A DNA stretch of 21,748 nucleotides, taken from a virus. Positions 821 through 18,109 of the stretch are shown here, piece after piece. Position 1 is the first letter of the stretch, and each line of letters opens with the position of its first letter. Under the pieces are notes generated by a model, which made no database searches, was not told where the DNA came from, and was given only the letters and a program-made list of their open reading frames with translations. Both the position numbers and the translations under genes were made by a program. The DNA lies in the IMG/VR virus record IMGVR_UViG_3300031787_000951, positions 1-21,748 of that record; one strand, written 5' to 3'.

Positions 821-1009
821 TCACTCAAACGCCACGTTGTCCCACCATGCGTGGGTACACATGATGCAGCAAAACCGCTGTCGAACTGTGACTCTGGCCA
901 GCCACCGCACCTCCCAGGTCGGGTACTTGTAGACGCTGACCGGAAACCACGCGAAAAACGTGCGGACACGCTCTTCTCCGTCTACGTAAATGCGGCCGGT
1001 GAATCGCAT
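821..1009 (-). CDS. Small protein of unknown function (62 aa), cassette bounded by direct repeats
   Basis: The chosen start is ATG at 1009, which overlaps the stop of the preceding gene as TGATG and has GGAGGTGA about 7 nt upstream. A GTG one codon earlier is badly spaced from that ribosome site. The 62-residue product is basic and aromatic, with WFPVSVYKYPTWEVRWL in the middle and a CCIMC cluster near the C-terminus before HAWWDNVAFE. I recognise no family. The gene sits exactly between two 19-bp direct repeats, so it may be a recently gained insert. Real translation is likely given the ribosome site, but function cannot be stated. Confidence 0.5.
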   Translation of the reverse strand: MRFTGRIYVDGEERVRTFFAWFPVSVYKYPTWEVRWLARVTVRQRFCCIMCTHAWWDNVAFE

Positions 1010-1025
1010 CACTTCACCTCCGGCG
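1007..1025 (-). repeat. 19-bp direct repeat, copy 2 (RBS/coupling element)
   Basis: Identical to 802-820. Here it encodes the last codons (EVK-stop) of the DUF551 gene, the ribosome site, and the ATG of the 62-aa gene, with stop and start fused as TGATG. Confidence 0.85.
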
Positions 1026-1263
1026 GCTTAACTGGCATCGGCATCCAGTGGGTCGGCTTCGCGTACGGCTCGTTTCCATGACGATCTACCCATCCGCAAA
1101 GACGCTCGTACTGTAGCACGTCAATCCACCCGTCGAAGTCGTCGCTGCATAGCACACGCTCGCCCTCTTCGGGCAACGCCTCTTCGACTGGAATCCACCG
1201 TCGATCCAATTCGTGCGGCTTTGGTTCCATCGCCTCAATGCCCTGTCGTTTCAGGTAGCCCAT
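1009..1263 (-). CDS. DUF551-like protein (84 aa)
   Basis: ATG at 1263 overlaps the upstream stop as TGATG and is preceded by GAGAGGTGAAG. The product carries the hallmark DUF551 pattern: RRWIPVEEALPEEGERVL (about residues 21-38), then a short variable stretch, then a terminal THWMPMPVKPP (about 70-80). DUF551 proteins are small phage and bacterial proteins common among accessory genes; their biochemical role is not established. It is translationally coupled on both sides, and the stop overlaps the ATG of the 62-aa gene by 1 nt. Family call is from the motif pattern only. Confidence 0.7.
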   Translation of the reverse strand: MGYLKRQGIEAMEPKPHELDRRWIPVEEALPEEGERVLCSDDFDGWIDVLQYERLCGWVDRHGNEPYAKPTHWMPMPVKPPEVK

Positions 1264-1274
1264 CACTTCACCTC
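1261..1274 (-). repeat. 14-nt core of the repeated RBS/TGATG coupling element, third copy
   Basis: Reads GAGGTGAAGTGATG on the minus strand. It encodes GEVK-stop of the upstream gene and the start codon of the DUF551 gene. It shares the 14-nt core with the copies at 802 and 1007. Confidence 0.75.
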
Positions 1275-1775
1275 TCCCGGAGCCCGGCACCCCGGCCCGC
1301 GGAGCGTCCCTGCGTTCAACTCGGGCCACAGTGACTCTGAGTGTATCGCAGCCAGCAAGCCCCATGCTGCATGAGGCAAATGATCCTCCGATCGGTCGCC
1401 GGACAGGTAGAGGTACACATGGCGGAGGGCGTGGTTCAGGAGGTCCGCCACCGGCATGCCCTTTTCCCAGTTGAAATCCCCGTACTTCGCCGCCCCCTCC
1501 GCGCACGTGCGAGCCACGGCCTCCAGGCCGATCGGCGAGATCAAGTCGTACCGCGTGGCCTCCGCGTCGCTCGACCGCACGGCCCCCGTAGCGAACCGCA
1601 CTGTCGACCCTTCCTGCTCCTTCACGTTGTCTGCCTCCTGGTAGTGTCTGACCATGCCGATGAGATGAATCACGTAGCCCGCAAGCGTGCCGCTTGTGCC
1701 GTGGTAGGCACCGCTGAATCGCCGCGCCCTACGCTCGGCGTCCCGCAGCTCGTCGTCCGTCAGCCAGTGGCTCAC
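1263..1775 (-). CDS. DUF5664-like protein, candidate dATP/dGTP diphosphohydrolase (170 aa)
   Basis: The start is GTG at 1775, overlapping the phosphoesterase stop as GTGA. The second half matches the DUF5664 pattern (now described in Pfam as a dATP/dGTP diphosphohydrolase domain): RYDLISP (75-81), AEGAAKYGDFNWEKG (92-106), HALRH (115-119) and HLPHAAWG (132-139). In MazG-related helical hydrolases such conserved Glu, His and Asp residues bind Mg and the nucleotide triphosphate. The first 70 residues are polar and helical and match nothing I know. If active, it would hydrolyse purine dNTPs to the monophosphate plus pyrophosphate in the cytoplasm. No PurZ-like partner is in the window. Family call is moderate; substrate is inferred. 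Confidence 0.6.
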   Translation of the reverse strand: MSHWLTDDELRDAERRARRFSGAYHGTSGTLAGYVIHLIGMVRHYQEADNVKEQEGSTVRFATGAVRSSDAEATRYDLISPIGLEAVARTCAEGAAKYGDFNWEKGMPVADLLNHALRHVYLYLSGDRSEDHLPHAAWGLLAAIHSESLWPELNAGTLRGPGCRAPGEVK

Positions 1776-2788
1776 GACGTCCGCACCTTTCCGTTCGCGA
1801 TTCGGAAATTGGAAACGTCAAACTGGCCGTCGGCCTGGACCTTGACCGACGCGAAGCCGTGATTGAACTTGTTGATGCGGGCGTACTCGGGCCGGAGATC
1901 GCACAGGCAGCCCGTGCTCCAGCAAAACACCTCCCGGCCGAACATATCCGGCTCGCAATGGGCGCTCGTGCGGTGCCCGTGGCCTTCGAGCACGGTGTGC
2001 TGGAGCCGGAGGAACGCCCCGCGGGCCTGGTTGACCGGGGCCGCGAACCCCTTGCCCTTCTCGTGCCCGTGGAGGATCGGCAGCTGGCCCGCCATGATCG
2101 GTCGCTGGTCGTCAACGTAGGCGATGCCGTGGTTCGCCATGTCGAGCCACTCGTCGAGGCCCGTCCGCTTGTCGTCGCTGATCTCCGGGGCGTGCTGCCA
2201 CAGCCAGTGGTTCCATCGCTCCTCGTGGTTGCCAGCCTTGAAGACGATCGGGATCGACGGGAACTGCCCGCGGATCCACGCGAGCATGTCGCGGGCGGCA
2301 TCCACCTCCGCGGAGAACTTCCGCTTCTTGGGGTTCTTTGTGTACCGGCTGATCGCGTAGAAGTCGCACGTGTCGCCGTTCAGCACCAGGGCGTCGATCT
2401 TGTCGCCCCGCAGCTGGTCGACGGCGGCCCGGAGGGCTACTTCGTCGTGGTAGGGCACGTGGATGTCGCTGAGCACGCCGACCTGGCCGGTGACGCCGAG
2501 ATAGTAAGGTGCCCACGCGTCGGCCTTCGACGGCGGCATTGGCGGGGCGGCCCCGGCGGATCGCTTGGCCCGCGGCGTTACTTTGTGCATGGTGCGGCGG
2601 TGGAACTCTCCGTTGATCCCGAGCTGCCGCCTGATTCGCGAGTAGGCTTGCTGGAGCGTGATGGCCCCGTTGGCCTCCTCCTGGAGGCGACGGCCGAGCG
2701 TTTTCGCAGGGGCGTCGGGGTGGGCCGCCACGAGACGGCGGGCCATTTCGGTGATCTCGTCGCCGCCTGTTTGTCCTTTGACTGGCAT
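1772..2788 (-). CDS. Calcineurin-like metallophosphoesterase with N-terminal helical (HTH-like) region
   Basis: ATG at 2788 has a strong GAGGAGG ribosome site a few bases upstream. The 338-aa product has the full metallophosphoesterase signature: DIH (108-110), NGDxxD (137-142), GNHE (186-189), HGH (240-242) and GHGH (269-272). These bind two metal ions and act on phosphodiesters or phosphomonoesters. Residues 10-60 (EMARRLVAAHP to QAYSRIRRQLG) look like a helix-turn-helix or winged-helix segment, hinting at nucleic acid binding. It is separated by 25 nt from the preceding tail-region gene and overlaps the next gene by 4 nt. Substrate is unknown; DNA or RNA end processing, or a role in host takeover, are possible. 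Enzyme class is secure. Confidence 0.88.
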   Translation of the reverse strand: MPVKGQTGGDEITEMARRLVAAHPDAPAKTLGRRLQEEANGAITLQQAYSRIRRQLGINGEFHRRTMHKVTPRAKRSAGAAPPMPPSKADAWAPYYLGVTGQVGVLSDIHVPYHDEVALRAAVDQLRGDKIDALVLNGDTCDFYAISRYTKNPKKRKFSAEVDAARDMLAWIRGQFPSIPIVFKAGNHEERWNHWLWQHAPEISDDKRTGLDEWLDMANHGIAYVDDQRPIMAGQLPILHGHEKGKGFAAPVNQARGAFLRLQHTVLEGHGHRTSAHCEPDMFGREVFCWSTGCLCDLRPEYARINKFNHGFASVKVQADGQFDVSNFRIANGKVRTS

Positions 2789-12260: not shown

Positions 12261-13487
12261 TCAGGTCGCGGCCTTGGCCAGACGACCGACGAACTCGGGG
12301 CCGTGATTGCTCACGCCGAGCCGGGTGCTCGCGACGTAGAGCAGCTGGCGGCTCCGCACGAGCAGCTCGCGGGCCACGGTGATCTCCAGGCCGGTGTCCT
12401 TGATGCCCACTGCCGTGGCCATCGAGAAGTCACCGAAGAGGGCCAGCGTGTTGGCCGGCAGGCCCTTCACGATGTAGACCGGAGCGCCGTAGATCGTCGG
12501 GACCACGCGGCCGCCGCCGACCACTTGGGTGGTCTGCTGAGCCGACCAGATCTTCATGAGATCCACGTAGCCGGCCTTGGAGCACACCCACGCGCCCGTG
12601 CCCATGATCGACTCGTCAACCTTGCCGACGACGTCGGCGAGGTTGTTCGCGGTCGTCGAGGCGTTGGCCGCCACGGTGACGGTGTTGCCAGCCGCCACCG
12701 CACCGGCGAGGCCGCCGATGGTCGGGTTGCTGGCGTTGCCGCCGAGCCAGACCGTGTCGATCCAGCGGGCGAGCCCGTAGGAGCACCGATCGACGATCAG
12801 GCCGGCCACGTCGATCGGCGAATCCTCGACGAGCGAACGCGACACGGGGATCGAGGCACCGCCCTCGGAGAGGGTCAGGTCGGCACCGCTGGACGAAATG
12901 TCCTGGTCGGTGAACCCGACGCCTTCGCCGGCGAAGCCGAACGTCACGTCGCCGCTCTTCGGCAGAGTGATCTTCTGGCCGGCCGGCCGGAAGATGCTGG
13001 CCAGCTGCACGCCGACCGACTGGTAGGAGAGCCGGTTCACGATGGCGTTGTACAGCTCGCCCATGACGAAGTCGGCACCGTAGCCGGACACCGTCTCGCC
13101 CATCGCCCGCTTTTCGCCGGCGGCGATCGAGCAGAGCAGGCGGCCAGCGGCCTCCGCGATCTTCGCGGAGCGGAAGGCCTTCACGCCGGCCCGGATGTCC
13201 GGAGCCGCGAAGCGGTCTTCCTTCTCGCCCTCGAACTGCCGCTCGACGTCTTCCCGGGACTTGTCGGCGCTGCGGACGCTCTTCATGGATGCGATGGCAG
13301 CGTCGATCTCGTCCTCTCGCCTGGCTTCCGCGGCGATCTTCGTGGCGCGCTCGGTGGCGGCCTTCAGCCGGCCCTCGATGCTCTCGCGGTCGGCGTCGTC
13401 CTTGGGCTCGAGCTGACGGAGAGCGTTGATCTCGTTCTCCACCGCGACGCTCTCATCTTGAAGAAGGCGGGTCTTCGGGCTGGGCAT
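12261..13487 (-). CDS. Major capsid protein, HK97 fold, with N-terminal scaffold domain (408 aa)
   Basis: ATG at 13487 with GAGGA upstream. Residues 1 to about 95 are charged and helical (NEINALRQLEPKDDADRES, KAATERATKIAAEARREDE), matching the HK97 delta/scaffold region that the prohead protease removes. The rest shows the Phage_capsid (PF05065) features: a loop and strand region with PAGQKITLPKSGDVTFGFAGEG (in part), the DLTLSEGGASIPVSRSLVEDSP stretch, and the C-terminal GVKDTGLEITVARELLVRSRQLLYVASTRLGVSN-like end (read here as AVGIKDTGLEITVARELL). It forms the icosahedral shell. It is preceded by a 115-nt gap carrying copy B of the 22-bp element. Confident. Confidence 0.92.
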   Translation of the reverse strand: MPSPKTRLLQDESVAVENEINALRQLEPKDDADRESIEGRLKAATERATKIAAEARREDEIDAAIASMKSVRSADKSREDVERQFEGEKEDRFAAPDIRAGVKAFRSAKIAEAAGRLLCSIAAGEKRAMGETVSGYGADFVMGELYNAIVNRLSYQSVGVQLASIFRPAGQKITLPKSGDVTFGFAGEGVGFTDQDISSSGADLTLSEGGASIPVSRSLVEDSPIDVAGLIVDRCSYGLARWIDTVWLGGNASNPTIGGLAGAVAAGNTVTVAANASTTANNLADVVGKVDESIMGTGAWVCSKAGYVDLMKIWSAQQTTQVVGGGRVVPTIYGAPVYIVKGLPANTLALFGDFSMATAVGIKDTGLEITVARELLVRSRQLLYVASTRLGVSNHGPEFVGRLAKAAT

Positions 13488-13602: not shown

Positions 13603-13884
13603 CTAGCCTTTGCGCCCCGCCACGAGCGCGTGGATCTCGCGCTGTCCTGCCGCCAGTTCTTGGAGCGTATCGGCCTGTTGCTCCTGGGTGCGGCCGAGCC
13701 CTTCAAGCGTGGCGGTCGTCTGCCTAAGAAACGATGAGTGGGCGTCCACCACCGGCACGAGTACCGTGCGGTGAAGAGCATGGGCGGCCTCGCGGAGAAG
13801 CCAGAGCAGCACGGCCAGCACGAGGCACGGGAAGCCGAACTCGCGAGCCGCACGGATACCAATCTCGATCAGTTCGCTGCTCAT
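13603..13884 (-). CDS. Small membrane protein with cytoplasmic/periplasmic helix (93 aa), holin-like architecture
   Basis: ATG at 13884 overlaps the upstream stop as ATGA; the longer frame upstream is inside the previous gene. It has a membrane segment at about residues 14-31 (FGFPCLVLAVLLWLLR), then an amphipathic or coiled region (HSSFLRQTTATLEGLGRTQEQ, about 50-70; LQELAAGQREI). One TM plus a coiled tail is common in small phage lysis-associated or holin-like proteins. Last gene before the capsid leader. Role is inferred. Confidence 0.55.
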   Translation of the reverse strand: MSSELIEIGIRAAREFGFPCLVLAVLLWLLREAAHALHRTVLVPVVDAHSSFLRQTTATLEGLGRTQEQQADTLQELAAGQREIHALVAGRKG

Positions 13885-14186
13885 TTGCGATGCTCCAACC
13901 ACCGTTGAACGAGAATCTCCACAATCTTCCCGATTGCCCACATGAGCAGCATCGACAGCAGCGGAGAGCCGCAGCGGTCGCGGTAGACCAGCCGAACGCG
14001 CTGCTCCCAACGTTCCCGCATGGCGTGGCTGTCGTGGCCGGCGAACAGGGATTCGCTACCCTTCGGTGATTCGACCAGTGTCGTCGCCACAATCGCGTCG
14101 CACCGCTCCCGGCCAAGCATGGCGCGGCGGACAGGGTAGGCCGCAAGCGACTGCCAGACGTGCTCGTCGATATCGGTGGAGGTCAT
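13881..14186 (-). CDS. Small protein with C-terminal hydrophobic segment (101 aa)
   Basis: ATG at 14186 overlaps the protease stop as ATGA and is preceded by AGGTG; a GTG 12 nt earlier is badly placed. The first two thirds are soluble and charged (MTSTDIDEHVWQSLAAYPVRR, ... AMRERWEQRVRLVYRDRCG), and the end holds a hydrophobic helix (LLSMLLMWAIGKIVEILVQRWL, about 75-97). It is a tail-anchored-like membrane protein. It is coupled with the secreted protease upstream and the 93-aa membrane protein downstream. No family recognised. Confidence 0.5.
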   Translation of the reverse strand: MTSTDIDEHVWQSLAAYPVRRAMLGRERCDAIVATTLVESPKGSESLFAGHDSHAMRERWEQRVRLVYRDRCGSPLLSMLLMWAIGKIVEILVQRWLEHRK

Positions 14187-15001
14187 CGTTTCGCACACCT
14201 TCCGTCCGGGCAGTCAGCCGGCCACTTCGCACGGGAGAGCAGGGACCGGATTTCGGTGGCGTGGCTGCCGATGGTGATCTCGCCATTGCTGCCAAACAGC
14301 ACAGCCGCCAGCTCGCCGTCGGTGTTGAACACTGGCCCGCCGGAATCGCCCTTCCTCGCGCCGGCCCGCAGCTCGACCATGTGCATCGGGTGCCGTCCGG
14401 TCGGGCCGAGGAGCTGGGTCATGGGGCCTGCCTGTTCGCGGTAGGCGAAGGGCGGCGGGCCGTAGCCGGCGATCGTGAGCCGGTCGCCCGGGGCAGGGGG
14501 GCGGGCCGCAAGCCGCACCGGGGCGGCGTCGGGGGCGGCCGTCACAAGGGCCGCCAGGTCGAAGGCGTCGTCGCTGGCCACCACGCGAGCCGGTGCTGAG
14601 CTGCCGTCCGGCCAGCGGATCGTGATCGAATCGCGGTTGCCGCGGACCACGTGCCAGGCGGTCAGCACAAGCGCGTGGCGGTCGCGGACATCGACGAGCA
14701 CGCCGGAGCCGCAGTCGGTGGAAGGGCCTGATCCGCAGACGATGCGAGGGACGGCCGGCCGGGGGCCGCCGGCAACGGCAGCGGGCGGCGGAGCCGGGGG
14801 CGCAGGCGGAGCGGCGATCAAGCCAGCCCCTTCGCAGAGCGGGCACACGAACCGCACCGGCCCTGGTCCGACAACGCGATCGCCGTGGCAGTTTTCGCAC
14901 GGTGCGGCCGCGGCGACCGTGGCGGCCCAGACGGCGATGAGTGCAGTGGCTCGCCGCAGCGCACGAACGACGGATCGGGTGTCGGCTTTGATCGCGATCA
15001 T
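14183..15001 (-). CDS. Secreted trypsin-like serine protease with N-terminal zinc-ribbon motif (272 aa)
   Basis: ATG at 15001 overlaps the upstream stop as ATGA, so I use this start and not the longer frame. A signal-type segment covers about 12-34 (positively charged start, then AVWAATVAAAA). Next comes CENC (35-38) and CPLC (53-56), a DnaJ-like zinc ribbon, then an Ala/Pro linker (63-85). The catalytic domain shows the complete triad: His117 in LTAWHVV, Asp148 in DDAFDLAAL, Ser220 in GDSGGP. It should be exported and cleave proteins outside the cytoplasm or in the virion. Two proteases in a row in a phage head block are unusual. Family is secure; target is unknown. Confidence 0.9.
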   Translation of the reverse strand: MIAIKADTRSVVRALRRATALIAVWAATVAAAAPCENCHGDRVVGPGPVRFVCPLCEGAGLIAAPPAPPAPPPAAVAGGPRPAVPRIVCGSGPSTDCGSGVLVDVRDRHALVLTAWHVVRGNRDSITIRWPDGSSAPARVVASDDAFDLAALVTAAPDAAPVRLAARPPAPGDRLTIAGYGPPPFAYREQAGPMTQLLGPTGRHPMHMVELRAGARKGDSGGPVFNTDGELAAVLFGSNGEITIGSHATEIRSLLSRAKWPADCPDGRCAKR

Positions 15002-15864
15002 GCTGGCTTGCTCCAGTCGTCGGGGAGTGTCATGGACGCGATCGCGAACGACCCCTTCCATGCGGATCGGGCCGTCCGCTCCGAGTCGTAGCGGACGATG
15101 TCGTATGAGTCCGGGTAGGCCATGAGCCGCTGGTCGGGGATCCACCGGGACCACGGCACCGCGTGGCCGTTGCGGCCCACGCTCACGACCAGGCCGTGTA
15201 GCAAGAGGCACACGGCCTGCTCATAGCTCGCCGGGAAAATCACCTCAAGCGGGCGGAACTGCCGGGCAGTCTCCTCCCAGCCCTCCGGGAACCGCGATAC
15301 CGACACCCACGGGCCGCCGGCCTGGTTCAAGCCGCCCTTGCCGGACGTGCCCACGATCGCATGCTTGAACTGGTAGTCGCGCGGCTGCACCGTCTCGGGG
15401 AGCATGCCGCGGCGGACGGCGATTTCGAGCACGGCCCGGACGTTGGCCCCGCCCCACTTCCGCGGGTTGGCCTCCGCGTAGACGGAGAGCGGCGAGAGCC
15501 AGACGGATCCGAAGTCCTTCGACTCCTGGTAGCGGAAGTCCTTTTTCGGCCCGCCGTAGTTCACGCCGCGGGCCCGGTTGCGGGCCGCCTCCGCGTTCGC
15601 TCGGAGACTGTGGCACGTGCATTCGTGGGTCGGATTCTGGTTCGTGAAGCGGTCGATGAAGTTGATGCCCCACGCTCCGGCCGCGTCGTTCTCTCGGGCC
15701 TTCGCGACCCAGTCGCGCGGCTCGATCCAGAGCGATTCTGGGAACTCGCGCGAGGCGTCGCCGCAGGCGTCGCGGAGAGCGTCGGTCGTGTCCTCCGCGG
15801 CCAGCTCGGCCGGGTAGCCGTCGTGCTCGTGCGGAAAGACGTCGATCAGGGAGGGGTCAATCAC
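14998..15864 (-). CDS. Papain-like (C1-type) cysteine peptidase candidate (288 aa)
   Basis: GTG at 15864 overlaps the upstream stop as GTGA. The pattern fits a papain-like fold: NQNPTHECTCHSL (75-87) with Cys84 in the place of the nucleophile after a Gln76, then LSPLSVYAEA (124-133) and GGANVRAVLEIAVRRGMLPE (138-157), typical of C1 domain middles, and NGHAVPW (232-238) with the His (234). The last Asn-containing NSWG element is not evident, so catalytic competence is unproven. No signal peptide is seen. It lies next to the trypsin-like protease and between a lipoprotein and it. Could instead be a structural protein with this fold. Confidence 0.6.
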   Translation of the reverse strand: MIDPSLIDVFPHEHDGYPAELAAEDTTDALRDACGDASREFPESLWIEPRDWVAKARENDAAGAWGINFIDRFTNQNPTHECTCHSLRANAEAARNRARGVNYGGPKKDFRYQESKDFGSVWLSPLSVYAEANPRKWGGANVRAVLEIAVRRGMLPETVQPRDYQFKHAIVGTSGKGGLNQAGGPWVSVSRFPEGWEETARQFRPLEVIFPASYEQAVCLLLHGLVVSVGRNGHAVPWSRWIPDQRLMAYPDSYDIVRYDSERTARSAWKGSFAIASMTLPDDWSKPA

Positions 15865-16238
15865 GGCACGGCCTCCATCACCGCGGCTTCACTCGCCGGG
15901 GCCGGCGTCACGCGGATCACCTGCACGCCAGCCAGGGCCACGACCGCAGGCAGCCCGGCCTTGCGGGCCGCCTCCAGGGCGAGCCGATACTGGGTCGGAA
16001 TCTCGCCATCGCCGTTGGTCGTGTCGTCCTCGAGGAGCGTGGCCACGATCTTCCGTTCACGGTTCAGCCTGTTGATTGCCACCGTCACGTGGGCCGGGAT
16101 CGCGTGATCGTCCTTCTCGTAGACGTACACCGCTGCGGTCGCCGGCCCGGCCGTCTGCTCCGTCGTGGCGCGGCAGCCGTCCACACGCGGCAGCGTGAGC
16201 AGGAGCAGGCCCGCGACGATGAAGGCAAACGGCCTCAC
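15861..16238 (-). CDS. Putative lipoprotein (125 aa)
   Basis: GTG at 16238 overlaps the upstream stop as GTGA; the longer frame is inside the previous gene. Residues 1-22 form a lipoprotein signal: MRPFAFIVAGLLLLTLPRVDGC, with VDGC as a lipobox and Cys22 as the lipid anchor candidate. The mature part has an Ala/Thr linker, an extended strand region (AAVYVYEKDDHAIPAHVTVAINRLNRE, in part) and an alternating helix/strand end. No family recognised. It is likely an outer- or inner-membrane-anchored periplasmic protein. Confidence 0.6.
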   Translation of the reverse strand: MRPFAFIVAGLLLLTLPRVDGCRATTEQTAGPATAAVYVYEKDDHAIPAHVTVAINRLNRERKIVATLLEDDTTNGDGEIPTQYRLALEAARKAGLPAVVALAGVQVIRVTPAPASEAAVMEAVP

Positions 16239-16477
16239 GACTTTGGTGCCTCCGGCTTCAGCAGCTCGTCGAGGAGCTGCTGGCACACGGCCACGGCCTG
16301 CGTCTTGCCCTGGTCACGGAGCCGGGCCGCAAGGTCGATCACCAGGCGGAGGTCGTCCACGGGTGTCCGCTCCCGCCGCCTGCCAAGCCGCGACCGGATC
16401 TGTTGCAAACCCACCACCACGCCGTAGCCGACGAGGCCGACGGCGATCACGATCTGGGCAACGGTCACGTAGCTCAT
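16235..16477 (-). CDS. Small membrane protein, N-terminal TM then charged helix (80 aa)
   Basis: ATG at 16477 overlaps the upstream stop as ATGA, with GGAG about 5 nt upstream. A TM helix covers about residues 6-24 (VAQIVIAVGLVGYGVVVGL), followed by RSRLGRRRER and then a helical tail (DDLRLVIDLAARLRDQGKTQAVAVCQQLLDELL). The basic stretch right after the TM suggests an N-out, C-in topology. Unknown function; part of the membrane-protein cassette. Confidence 0.5.
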   Translation of the reverse strand: MSYVTVAQIVIAVGLVGYGVVVGLQQIRSRLGRRRERTPVDDLRLVIDLAARLRDQGKTQAVAVCQQLLDELLKPEAPKS

Positions 16478-16725
16478 GTCTTCTCCATTTCCGCGGCCTT
16501 ATCGGCGATCCACCCGGCCAGGGCCGCGCCCTCCGGGGTCTTCAGCACGGCCGCCAGGTGGCGGGCCAGTTCGTCGTCGAGGCGGTTGCCCGTCTTGCTC
16601 GCGAGCCACTCCATGGCGTCGGCGATCACCTCGGCCCGCTGCCGGTCGTCGGTGGCTGCCGACAGCCGCCGGCCGTAGCCGAGCAGGGGAGCCCACTCCA
16701 CGATCAGCCGGACGTTGTCGAGCAT
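16474..16725 (-). CDS. Small helical protein (83 aa), cassette gene
   Basis: ATG at 16725, 2 nt after the previous stop, with GAGGG about 8 nt upstream; the longer frame lies antisense or out of frame in the previous gene. The product is a soluble helical protein (MLDNVRLIVEWAPLLGYGRR, then DRQRAEVIADAMEWLASKTG and a C-terminal TPEGAALAGWIADKAAEME). No family is recognised. Real translation is supported by the ribosome site and the tight packing. Confidence 0.5.
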   Translation of the reverse strand: MLDNVRLIVEWAPLLGYGRRLSAATDDRQRAEVIADAMEWLASKTGNRLDDELARHLAAVLKTPEGAALAGWIADKAAEMEKT

Positions 16726-16727
16726 CC

Positions 16728-17099
16728 TCAGGCCCTCACGAGCGGCAGCAGCTGCTCCACGGCACCGCTCGCCATGGCGATCACGAGCGACCGAACGGCG
16801 GGTCGGACGATGAGCCAGAGCGGCCAGACTGCCACAGGAATTGCCCGGTCGGCCACGGCGTCGAACAGCATGCCGACGGCCTCCAGAGCGAACGTCTTCT
16901 TCTCCGCTCCTGTCAGGAACTTGGCCGCGTCGATGGCAGGGATCACAAGCCGCAGCAGAGCCAGCATGAGGTCGCCGAACTCGGCCCACGTCAGGCCGTC
17001 GGCGGCCGCCGACTTGGCCGTGGAAATGAACGCGCGAATCTTGTCCATCAAGTTCGCGTCGAGGTTGGTGGCCACGGCCACCGGCGCAGACGAGATCAT
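16728..17099 (-). CDS. Small protein with C-terminal hydrophobic segments, holin-like architecture (123 aa)
   Basis: ATG at 17099 overlaps the prohead protease stop as ATGA. The first half is helical (DKIRAFISTAKSAAADGLTW; EFGDLMLALLRLVIPAIDAAKF, in part). The second half has a hydrophobic pair (DAVADRAIPVAVWPLWLIVRPAVRSLVIAM, in part, about 80-109) and a terminal SGAVEQLLPLV. It may associate with the membrane. No known family; it opens the membrane/peptidase cassette. Confidence 0.5.
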   Translation of the reverse strand: MISSAPVAVATNLDANLMDKIRAFISTAKSAAADGLTWAEFGDLMLALLRLVIPAIDAAKFLTGAEKKTFALEAVGMLFDAVADRAIPVAVWPLWLIVRPAVRSLVIAMASGAVEQLLPLVRA

Positions 17100-18109
17100 T
17101 TCGCCACCCCCGTCGAGGCAATTACCGTTCTCATGCGGGCGGCGGCCGCCGCTGCGGCAGCCCTCGCCCCGGAAAGCGTCGAGACCTTCACGCTACGCGG
17201 CGCACCCGCGGCCGACTTGCCGGCCTCCGGGATGCCCTCCGGGTAGTCGTCGATCCACACGTCGATGGTGAGGCCGGCGGCTGCTGCGGCCGACCGCTTT
17301 TGCTGGTCCCGCCCACAGAGCAGCACGCCGGCCAGCTCGTCGTGGAGATCGCCGAACGCATCCCGAAGGGCGCTCCGGTTCTCCTCTGTGTCCTCGCGTC
17401 GCGTGATGCACACGACGCGGTTGCCGCGGGCCTGCGCGTCGGTGACGAAAGACCGCCACAGGCCGGGGGCCGCGGTGAAGGTGCCGTCGAAGTCGAGAGA
17501 GATCGTGAGGCCCCGAGACTCGGCCCGGTGGGCCATCACGCTCCGGGCCTGCTTCCAGAGCGGCAGTGAACGGATGCCGGCCGTGCTCTGCGGATAGGCC
17601 GGGTAGGTGACGGCCGAGATGTCGTAGAGGCCGCTGGCCCGAAACACCGTCCGGATCACGTTGCCCTTTTCGTCCTCCGTCCACGTCTCCCCGTCGGACG
17701 CGGCGGTGAACGCGAAGCTCGCGCCGGTGATCGTGCGATCCTCCACGAGCATCGCGAGATCGCGGCCGTGGGTCGTCGGAATCGGGCGGTGAACGTATTC
17801 GAGGCCCTTTAATGCCTTGCGGATTTCGAGCCGGCCGTTCGTGGTGCGGCCCGTAATCAGGTGCGACAGGTGGTCAGTCAGGAACGGCACGTCGATCTTG
17901 CCGCGCGGATCGTTCGCCTTGCGGTCCACGAGGCCGTCGAATGCGGTCGGGGCGAACTTCTCGCGGAAGCCGCCGAGATCGACGGAGAAAGAATCCCACG
18001 GCGGCGAGATCCCGGTGATCACGGGCGGCTCGCCGTCACGCGTCTGGACGGTGATCGCGTCCGGGTAGTCGGCCGTCAGCAGGTACCGGCGCTCGATTGC
18101 AGTCGTCAT
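17096..18109 (-). CDS. Prohead protease fused to a HAD-like phosphatase domain (337 aa)
   Basis: ATG at 18109 overlaps the portal stop as ATGA. Residues 1 to about 180 match the HK97 U35-type prohead protease: PFLTDH with His80, a Leu-rich RKALKGLEYVHRPIP stretch, TITGASFAF with Ser131, and DISAVTYPAYPQ (163-173). This part cleaves the capsid scaffold. Residues 200-337 match a HAD phosphatase: LDFDGT (Asp206 and Asp208), CITRR (Thr236), a motif III Lys around 271, and WIDDYPE (Asp287/288). A possible internal start at Met192 (ribosome site GGAG 4 nt before) could yield the HAD part alone. I know no standard prohead protease with such a C-terminus. Confidence 0.85.
   Translation of the reverse strand: MTTAIERRYLLTADYPDAITVQTRDGEPPVITGISPPWDSFSVDLGGFREKFAPTAFDGLVDRKANDPRGKIDVPFLTDHLSHLITGRTTNGRLEIRKALKGLEYVHRPIPTTHGRDLAMLVEDRTITGASFAFTAASDGETWTEDEKGNVIRTVFRASGLYDISAVTYPAYPQSTAGIRSLPLWKQARSVMAHRAESRGLTISLDFDGTFTAAPGLWRSFVTDAQARGNRVVCITRREDTEENRSALRDAFGDLHDELAGVLLCGRDQQKRSAAAAAGLTIDVWIDDYPEGIPEAGKSAAGAPRSVKVSTLSGARAAAAAAAARMRTVIASTGVAK

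Follow-up and report, generated by a model that had tools for sequence, protein, structure and literature searches.

A mobile gene block with predicted papain- and trypsin-type proteases as a probable lysis module of temperate planctomycete phages

The holin-endolysin-spanin cassette of lambda-type phages is a compact set of late genes for small membrane proteins and one signal-less hydrolase that is transferred as a unit, and in lambda-like phages the lysis genes lie upstream of the terminase. Some endolysins with papain topology, including CHAP and Amidase_5 enzymes and a domain of mycobacteriophage LysA, provide a cysteine peptidase-like enzyme for phage exit (PMC8586454; PMC6116114). We examined a block of eight open reading frames (ORFs), g1 to g8, in a viral sequence of 21,748 bases that is the entire IMG/VR record IMGVR_UViG_3300031787_000951 (hereafter, the window). 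The block resembles a lambda-type cassette in its compactness, small membrane proteins, single signal-less hydrolase and transfer as a unit, but it has no recognised peptidoglycan hydrolase, holin or spanin and carries proteases and redox-type proteins instead. It probably provides temperate planctomycete phages with a mobile lysis module in which the place of the endolysin is taken by proteases, and it would thus work like a lysis cassette without a recognised form of the enzyme that defines the holin-endolysin kind.

A first-pass annotation of the window had described an eight-gene insert between the prohead protease and capsid genes, joined mostly by 4-nucleotide (nt) overlaps, and the ORFs and the Pfam matches of the flanking genes agree with that description. 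The gene order on the minus strand is terminase small and large subunits, portal, S78 protease, g1 to g8, HK97 capsid, and head-tail and tail genes, and at its far end the window carries a tyrosine integrase gene on the plus strand. The block fills positions 17099 to 13603, with a spacing of -4 nt at the protease/g1 junction and at all six junctions from g2/g3 to g7/g8, +2 nt at g1/g2 and 115 nt between g8 and the capsid gene. The features are listed below, with membrane topologies called by hydropathy across homologues.

17096..18109, minus strand: upstream flank, S78 prohead protease with a C-terminal HAD-like domain (PF04586, 4.6e-24; phrog_80, phrog_4919)
16728..17099, minus strand: g1, 123 amino acids (aa), one or two weak hydrophobic segments (from topology; homologues in g5-type cassettes and in the c67-type cassettes described below)
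16474..16725, minus strand: g2, 83 aa, predicted soluble helical protein (transmembrane segment [TM] absent in 49/49 homologues; weak phrog_402 match)
16235..16477, minus strand: g3, 80 aa, N-terminal TM followed by basic residues (TM in 49/52 homologues)
15861..16238, minus strand: g4, 125 aa, N-terminal hydrophobic segment (signal or anchor) and conserved outer domain (segment in 53/59 homologues)
14998..15864, minus strand: g5, 288 aa, papain-like cysteine peptidase candidate without signal or TM (active-site spacing; remote homologues)
14183..15001, minus strand: g6, 272 aa, N-terminal hydrophobic segment, CxxCxG...CxxCxG ribbon and trypsin-like domain (PF13365, 1.4e-19; alignment)
13881..14186, minus strand: g7, 101 aa, predicted tail-anchored membrane protein (C-terminal TM in 51/51 homologues)
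13603..13884, minus strand: g8, 93 aa, N-terminal TM, then a helical, probably coiled-coil tail (TM in 51/51 homologues; alignment)
12261..13487, minus strand: downstream flank, HK97-type major capsid protein (PF05065, 2.9e-18)

The block is real and not a chance arrangement, since 66 viral contigs contain all eight genes without any change of order, and since the dN/dS of g5 against three relatives (~0.07-0.11) indicates purifying selection. These contigs came from a scan with g5 that reached 102 viral loci, the best 80 of which were kept (73-97% identity); many are near duplicates from related samples, and the counts are not independent events. In 27 of the 66 the block does not lie beside the protease or capsid gene. 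Three viral contexts were seen: protease-[g1-g8]-capsid as in the window (context A), the inside of another head/tail module (context B; G003, G015, G013 and G016, with no g1 called in G016), and a position after the tail genes that adjoins lysogeny genes (context C; G001, G008 and G011). The context-B proteins of G015 match a GpA terminase, a lambda-type portal and Phage_capsid_4. When the window was compared with loci L003 or L034, the sole match at the DNA level in the whole window was 13620-17018 (3.4 kb, 85.4%), which corresponds closely to the block as originally delimited. Because the match is confined to this segment, the block moves as a unit, and it does so among phages whose heads are unrelated. 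In some relatives the block itself is interrupted: an orphan DNA methyltransferase-like ORF with a DPPYGLSF motif is inserted between g4 and g5 at L017:433-1713, and g4-g5 gaps of similar size occur in L006, L011 and L092.

The location of the block inside the head operon of the window might suggest that its products are virion or morphogenesis proteins, with proteases that are packaged or that aid head maturation or DNA entry. This is highly improbable given that other phages, whose heads are unrelated, carry the block too, that it is also placed behind tail genes and ahead of the terminase, and that several of its products are small membrane proteins. Since the block is not confined to the vicinity of capsid genes, we rejected a role in capsid maturation.

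Relatives that have a similar capsid and lack g5 carry a second type of cassette, in which g1, the single gene common to both types, is followed by c66 (with a TM), c67 (about 360-390 aa), c68, in some cases c131, and c93. c67 is commoner than g5 (445 loci), and its cassette occupies sites of the g5 block, both between protease and capsid and in context C (L199, L204); the two cassettes are interchangeable at these two sites. To avoid using the cassette as bait, we took loci from capsid or portal probes, which gave 43 distinct protease-capsid junctions, with the g5 type at 14, the c67 type at 29 and none empty. Since every junction holds a cassette, its function looks indispensable to these phages rather than sporadic.

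This occupancy bears on another possibility, namely that the block serves lysogenic conversion or surface modification, with secreted proteases that trim surface proteins of the lysogen and, for example, block superinfection. In its favour, an integrase is encoded by the phages, and receptors could be stripped off by secreted proteases. Accessory morons, however, are typically sporadic and have their own transcription, whereas a cassette is present at all 43 junctions, the block's genes overlap one another and the gene for the prohead protease within the structural operon, and g5 is under purifying selection. The first-pass annotation had held this role to be equally plausible; we regard it as very unlikely, and nearly as improbable as the virion role.

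What enzymes do the two cassettes encode? For c67, an AlphaFold model from 31 sequences (pLDDT 70.5, pTM 0.74) was compared with known structures by Foldseek and VIA-align, and the matches were C1A proteases: xylellain (3ois_A; Z 16.9, 3.4 Å over 222 residues), cathepsin B1 (Z 16.6), Der p 1 (Z 16.1) and papain precursor (Z 15.2). Gln103, Cys108, His275 and Asn298-Ser-Trp are invariant in the 31 sequences, and from the modelled fold and these residues c67 is a predicted C1A papain-fold protease. Bacterial C1A proteases such as xylellain share with c67 the fold and the Gln/Cys/His/Asn residues, but c67 is phage-borne, predicted to be membrane-anchored and part of a fixed cassette with small membrane proteins. 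Proteins of uncultured Caudovirales annotated as Peptidase_C1 in BFVD have a similar predicted fold and are only 11-18% identical to c67. An N-terminal hydrophobic anchor in 63/64 homologues recalls the signal-anchor (SAR) endolysins, whose export is independent of a holin, and could bring c67 to the envelope without a holin; SAR endolysins, however, have a lysozyme or transglycosylase fold.

The case for g5 as a papain-like enzyme rests on active-site spacing and two remote homologues. Gln76, Cys82 and His234 (the latter within GHAV) are invariant, and the Gln76-Cys82 spacing is that of papain in most members, with an insertion in a few; a TM is absent in 60/60 homologues. The remote homologues, L259 and L261, come from two planctomycete genomes, are 31% identical in the alignment and carry RQTLGSCASHS, GHAIYAV and YANSWGTWGDAGYGY in register with g5. 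Unlike the window family, in which the catalytic Asn of papain aligns with Asp252, they have this Asn in an NSWG motif. L259 matches Peptidase_C1 (PF00112) at E 0.015 and 15.8 bits, below the cut-off of 20.7, and its sole PDB sequence match, to the mite cysteine-protease allergen Blo t 1, is weak (E 0.92). g5 itself matched nothing in Pfam or PHROGs, including PF00112, and no PDB sequence matches to the g5 or c67 alignments were found. Support for g5 as a papain-like peptidase, for which the first-pass annotation had named a candidate in the block, is good but not final.

The secreted trypsin-like protease reported for the block corresponds to g6, whose PF13365 score (71.7 bits against a cut-off of 27.6) and triad of His117, Asp148 and Ser220, invariant in 23 sequences, assign it by sequence to the trypsin-like S1 proteases; to that description we add the CxxCxG...CxxCxG ribbon that precedes the trypsin domain. 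The lipoprotein reported for the block did not hold up, as the Cys of g4 is not conserved among its homologues. Among the remaining genes, the membrane proteins are of a size that fits holins. g8 is a holin candidate by architecture only, and g1 is possibly a holin-like protein. A resemblance of g8 to BhlA/UviB holins was not supported by Pfam and PHROGs. As for the second cassette, the C-terminus of c93 is Cys-rich, and c131, which is present in some of these cassettes, weakly matches Transgly_assoc (1.3e-4).

The first-pass annotation had recognised no glycosidase or amidase endolysin in the window, and Pfam likewise found no peptidoglycan hydrolase family in g1 to g8 or in the other proteins of the window. 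G022, G014 and G018 have direct terminal repeats of 123-127 bp and lengths of 30-32 kb and are therefore probably complete, although the record listing carries no such flag. Pfam scans covered the proteins of these three phages and of the 37-kb G015 that have no window homologue, and the families displayed (25 of 28 in one scan) concerned replication, recombination, nuclease, regulatory and structural functions, with no amidase, glycosidase, CHAP, NlpC/P60, M23 or transglycosylase among them. Amidase_2 was absent from 40 records and matched in six control genomes, and a PHROG scan of G022 gave no lysis family among the best 25 of 61 matches. Because Pfam also misses g5 and c67, this absence covers recognisable enzymes only.

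It is conceivable, though we think it unlikely, that the block is a lysis module in which g5 and c67 are very divergent endolysins that cut the peptide cross-links of peptidoglycan, with the trypsin-like and redox proteins as accessories. Peptidoglycan is present in planctomycete sacculi (PMC4432640), Skl and Pal are CHAP/Amidase_5 cysteine amidases of papain-like topology (PMC8586454), and proteases of the papain family are matched by one domain of a mycobacteriophage LysA (PMC6116114). Those endolysins act on peptidoglycan and are found by Pfam, whereas c67 is C1A-like and has no visible wall-binding domain; its model matches C1A proteases throughout the list (Z 15-17) rather than CHAP or NlpC/P60, although absence from a list is not exclusion. 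The co-transfer of a trypsin-like protease also speaks against this alternative.

Evidence for the hosts came from bacterial genomes. g5 occurs at 94% identity in a 40-kb contig of a Planctomycetaceae metagenome-assembled genome (MAG). Two proteins at the end of this contig have no counterpart in these phages, and a Pfam scan showed amine oxidase, acyltransferase and MFS families, unexpected among the phage proteins scanned alongside, which together suggest that the contig includes adjoining host DNA. Searches of 392 genomes of the phylum placed relatives of c67, g5 or g1 in long contigs, with E values of 1e-9 to 1e-16 for g1 homologues in chromosomal prophages. Pfam neighbours in G380 and G368 include terminase and portal, and also capsid in G380. 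The cassette in these prophages lies directly upstream of the terminase (terminase-portal-capsid), as does the lambda-type cassette. The block shares with canonical lysis cassettes modular transfer and a typical genome position, and differs in having no peptidoglycan hydrolase domain of a recognisable Pfam family. INPHARED held no relatives of g5, g6, the capsid, c67 or the remote g5 homologue.

The prophage blocks also parallel the window in content. In G368 and G246, small membrane proteins and a g5 homologue are accompanied by an exported protein with a thioredoxin-like CxYC motif, a tail-anchored protein with a weak match to g7 (E 0.004 and 0.04, the former for the syntenic protein G246_022) and a TM/coiled-coil protein. 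The thioredoxin-like protein of planctomycete prophages stands in the slot of g6 and replaces the trypsin/zinc-ribbon protein. An exported thioredoxin also follows shortly after c67 in G162, G380 and G374 (PF13899, 7.5e-8 in G380), and the N-terminal part of the prophage thioredoxin matches that of c93 (E 1e-4 and 7e-4). From this position and this match, a single slot appears to hold a trypsin-like domain plus Cys-ribbon, a Cys-rich protein or a thioredoxin. In one planctomycete genome, a papain protein distantly resembling c67 (L246 and L270; G402:C1, around 1728118-1728855) has no neighbour that was recognised as phage; it is perhaps a host-encoded relative of the phage enzyme, or else a remnant of a prophage.

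How might such a module open the cell? Late in infection g8, g7, g3 and perhaps g1 would breach the inner membrane and so release the g5 peptidase, which has no signal of its own, much as a classical endolysin needs a holin, while in the alternative block the c67 peptidase would carry its own N-terminal anchor. g6 and g4 would be exported by Sec and, like the thioredoxin and c93, would act beyond the inner membrane. Acting together, the block proteins would cleave the envelope's protein scaffold, and may also reduce it, until the cell bursts. A cysteine-rich, disulfide-stabilised protein layer has been reported for some planctomycete envelopes, and we tentatively suggest, as an idea somewhat short of even odds, that lysis proceeds without a peptidoglycan hydrolase, with papain- and trypsin-type proteases and the exported thioredoxin or Cys-rich ribbon protein dismantling such a layer.

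The first-pass annotation had proposed a module for lysis or envelope breaching by means of proteases, and the circumstantial support for this proposal is strong: the block moves as a unit, one of its two versions is always present, it belongs to a late operon and elsewhere takes a position typical of lysis genes, and it combines papain- and trypsin-type proteases with small membrane proteins in phages whose apparently complete relatives have no recognised endolysin. Lysis itself and the substrate, whether an envelope protein or a peptidoglycan peptide, are what we infer from these features. Several points weigh against a protease-based lysis module. None of the small proteins of the block matched a known holin or spanin family in Pfam or PHROGs, and Pfam could have missed a divergent endolysin just as it misses the two peptidases. 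The AlphaFold model of g5 failed (pLDDT 39) and structure comparison gave no match, a profile comparison of g5 with c67 gave no significant link, and Asp252 takes the place of the catalytic Asn. Moreover, planctomycetes have lysozyme-sensitive peptidoglycan, which proteases alone would not cut (PMC4432640). Non-lytic release, which has been reported for the planctomycete phage ZRK32 (PMC10945688), was considered as an alternative.

In the open literature we found no description of such a protease-based phage module, and nothing on host lysis by planctomycete phages. Whether planctomycetes rely on peptidoglycan, a disulfide-rich protein layer or both has been debated since the 1980s (PMC3035269, PMC4432640). 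If our reading is correct, an exit module that combines proteases with thiol-redox proteins would lend itself to probing which envelope layer bears the load and would be a source of new envelope-active enzymes, and it would account for the absence of lysis genes from the standard annotation of hundreds of such phage contigs.

Other features of these genomes deserve mention. The C-terminal HAD-like domain of the S78 protease (17096-18109, minus strand) has an LDFDGTF motif and matches phrog_4919 and phrog_4256; this fusion is unusual and, judged by length, is kept in many relatives. G015 (L125, L126) encodes a CsrA-family regulator (PF02599) and a deoxynucleotide monophosphate kinase (PF21448). 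The G009 record (73,309 bases; L131-L134) contains two structural gene sets and, at its end, the start of a g1-g5 cassette, and is perhaps two adjacent prophages or a chimeric contig. Small accessory genes at 1009-2788 (minus strand) of the window encode a dATP/dGTP diphosphohydrolase, a metallophosphoesterase and a DUF551 protein.

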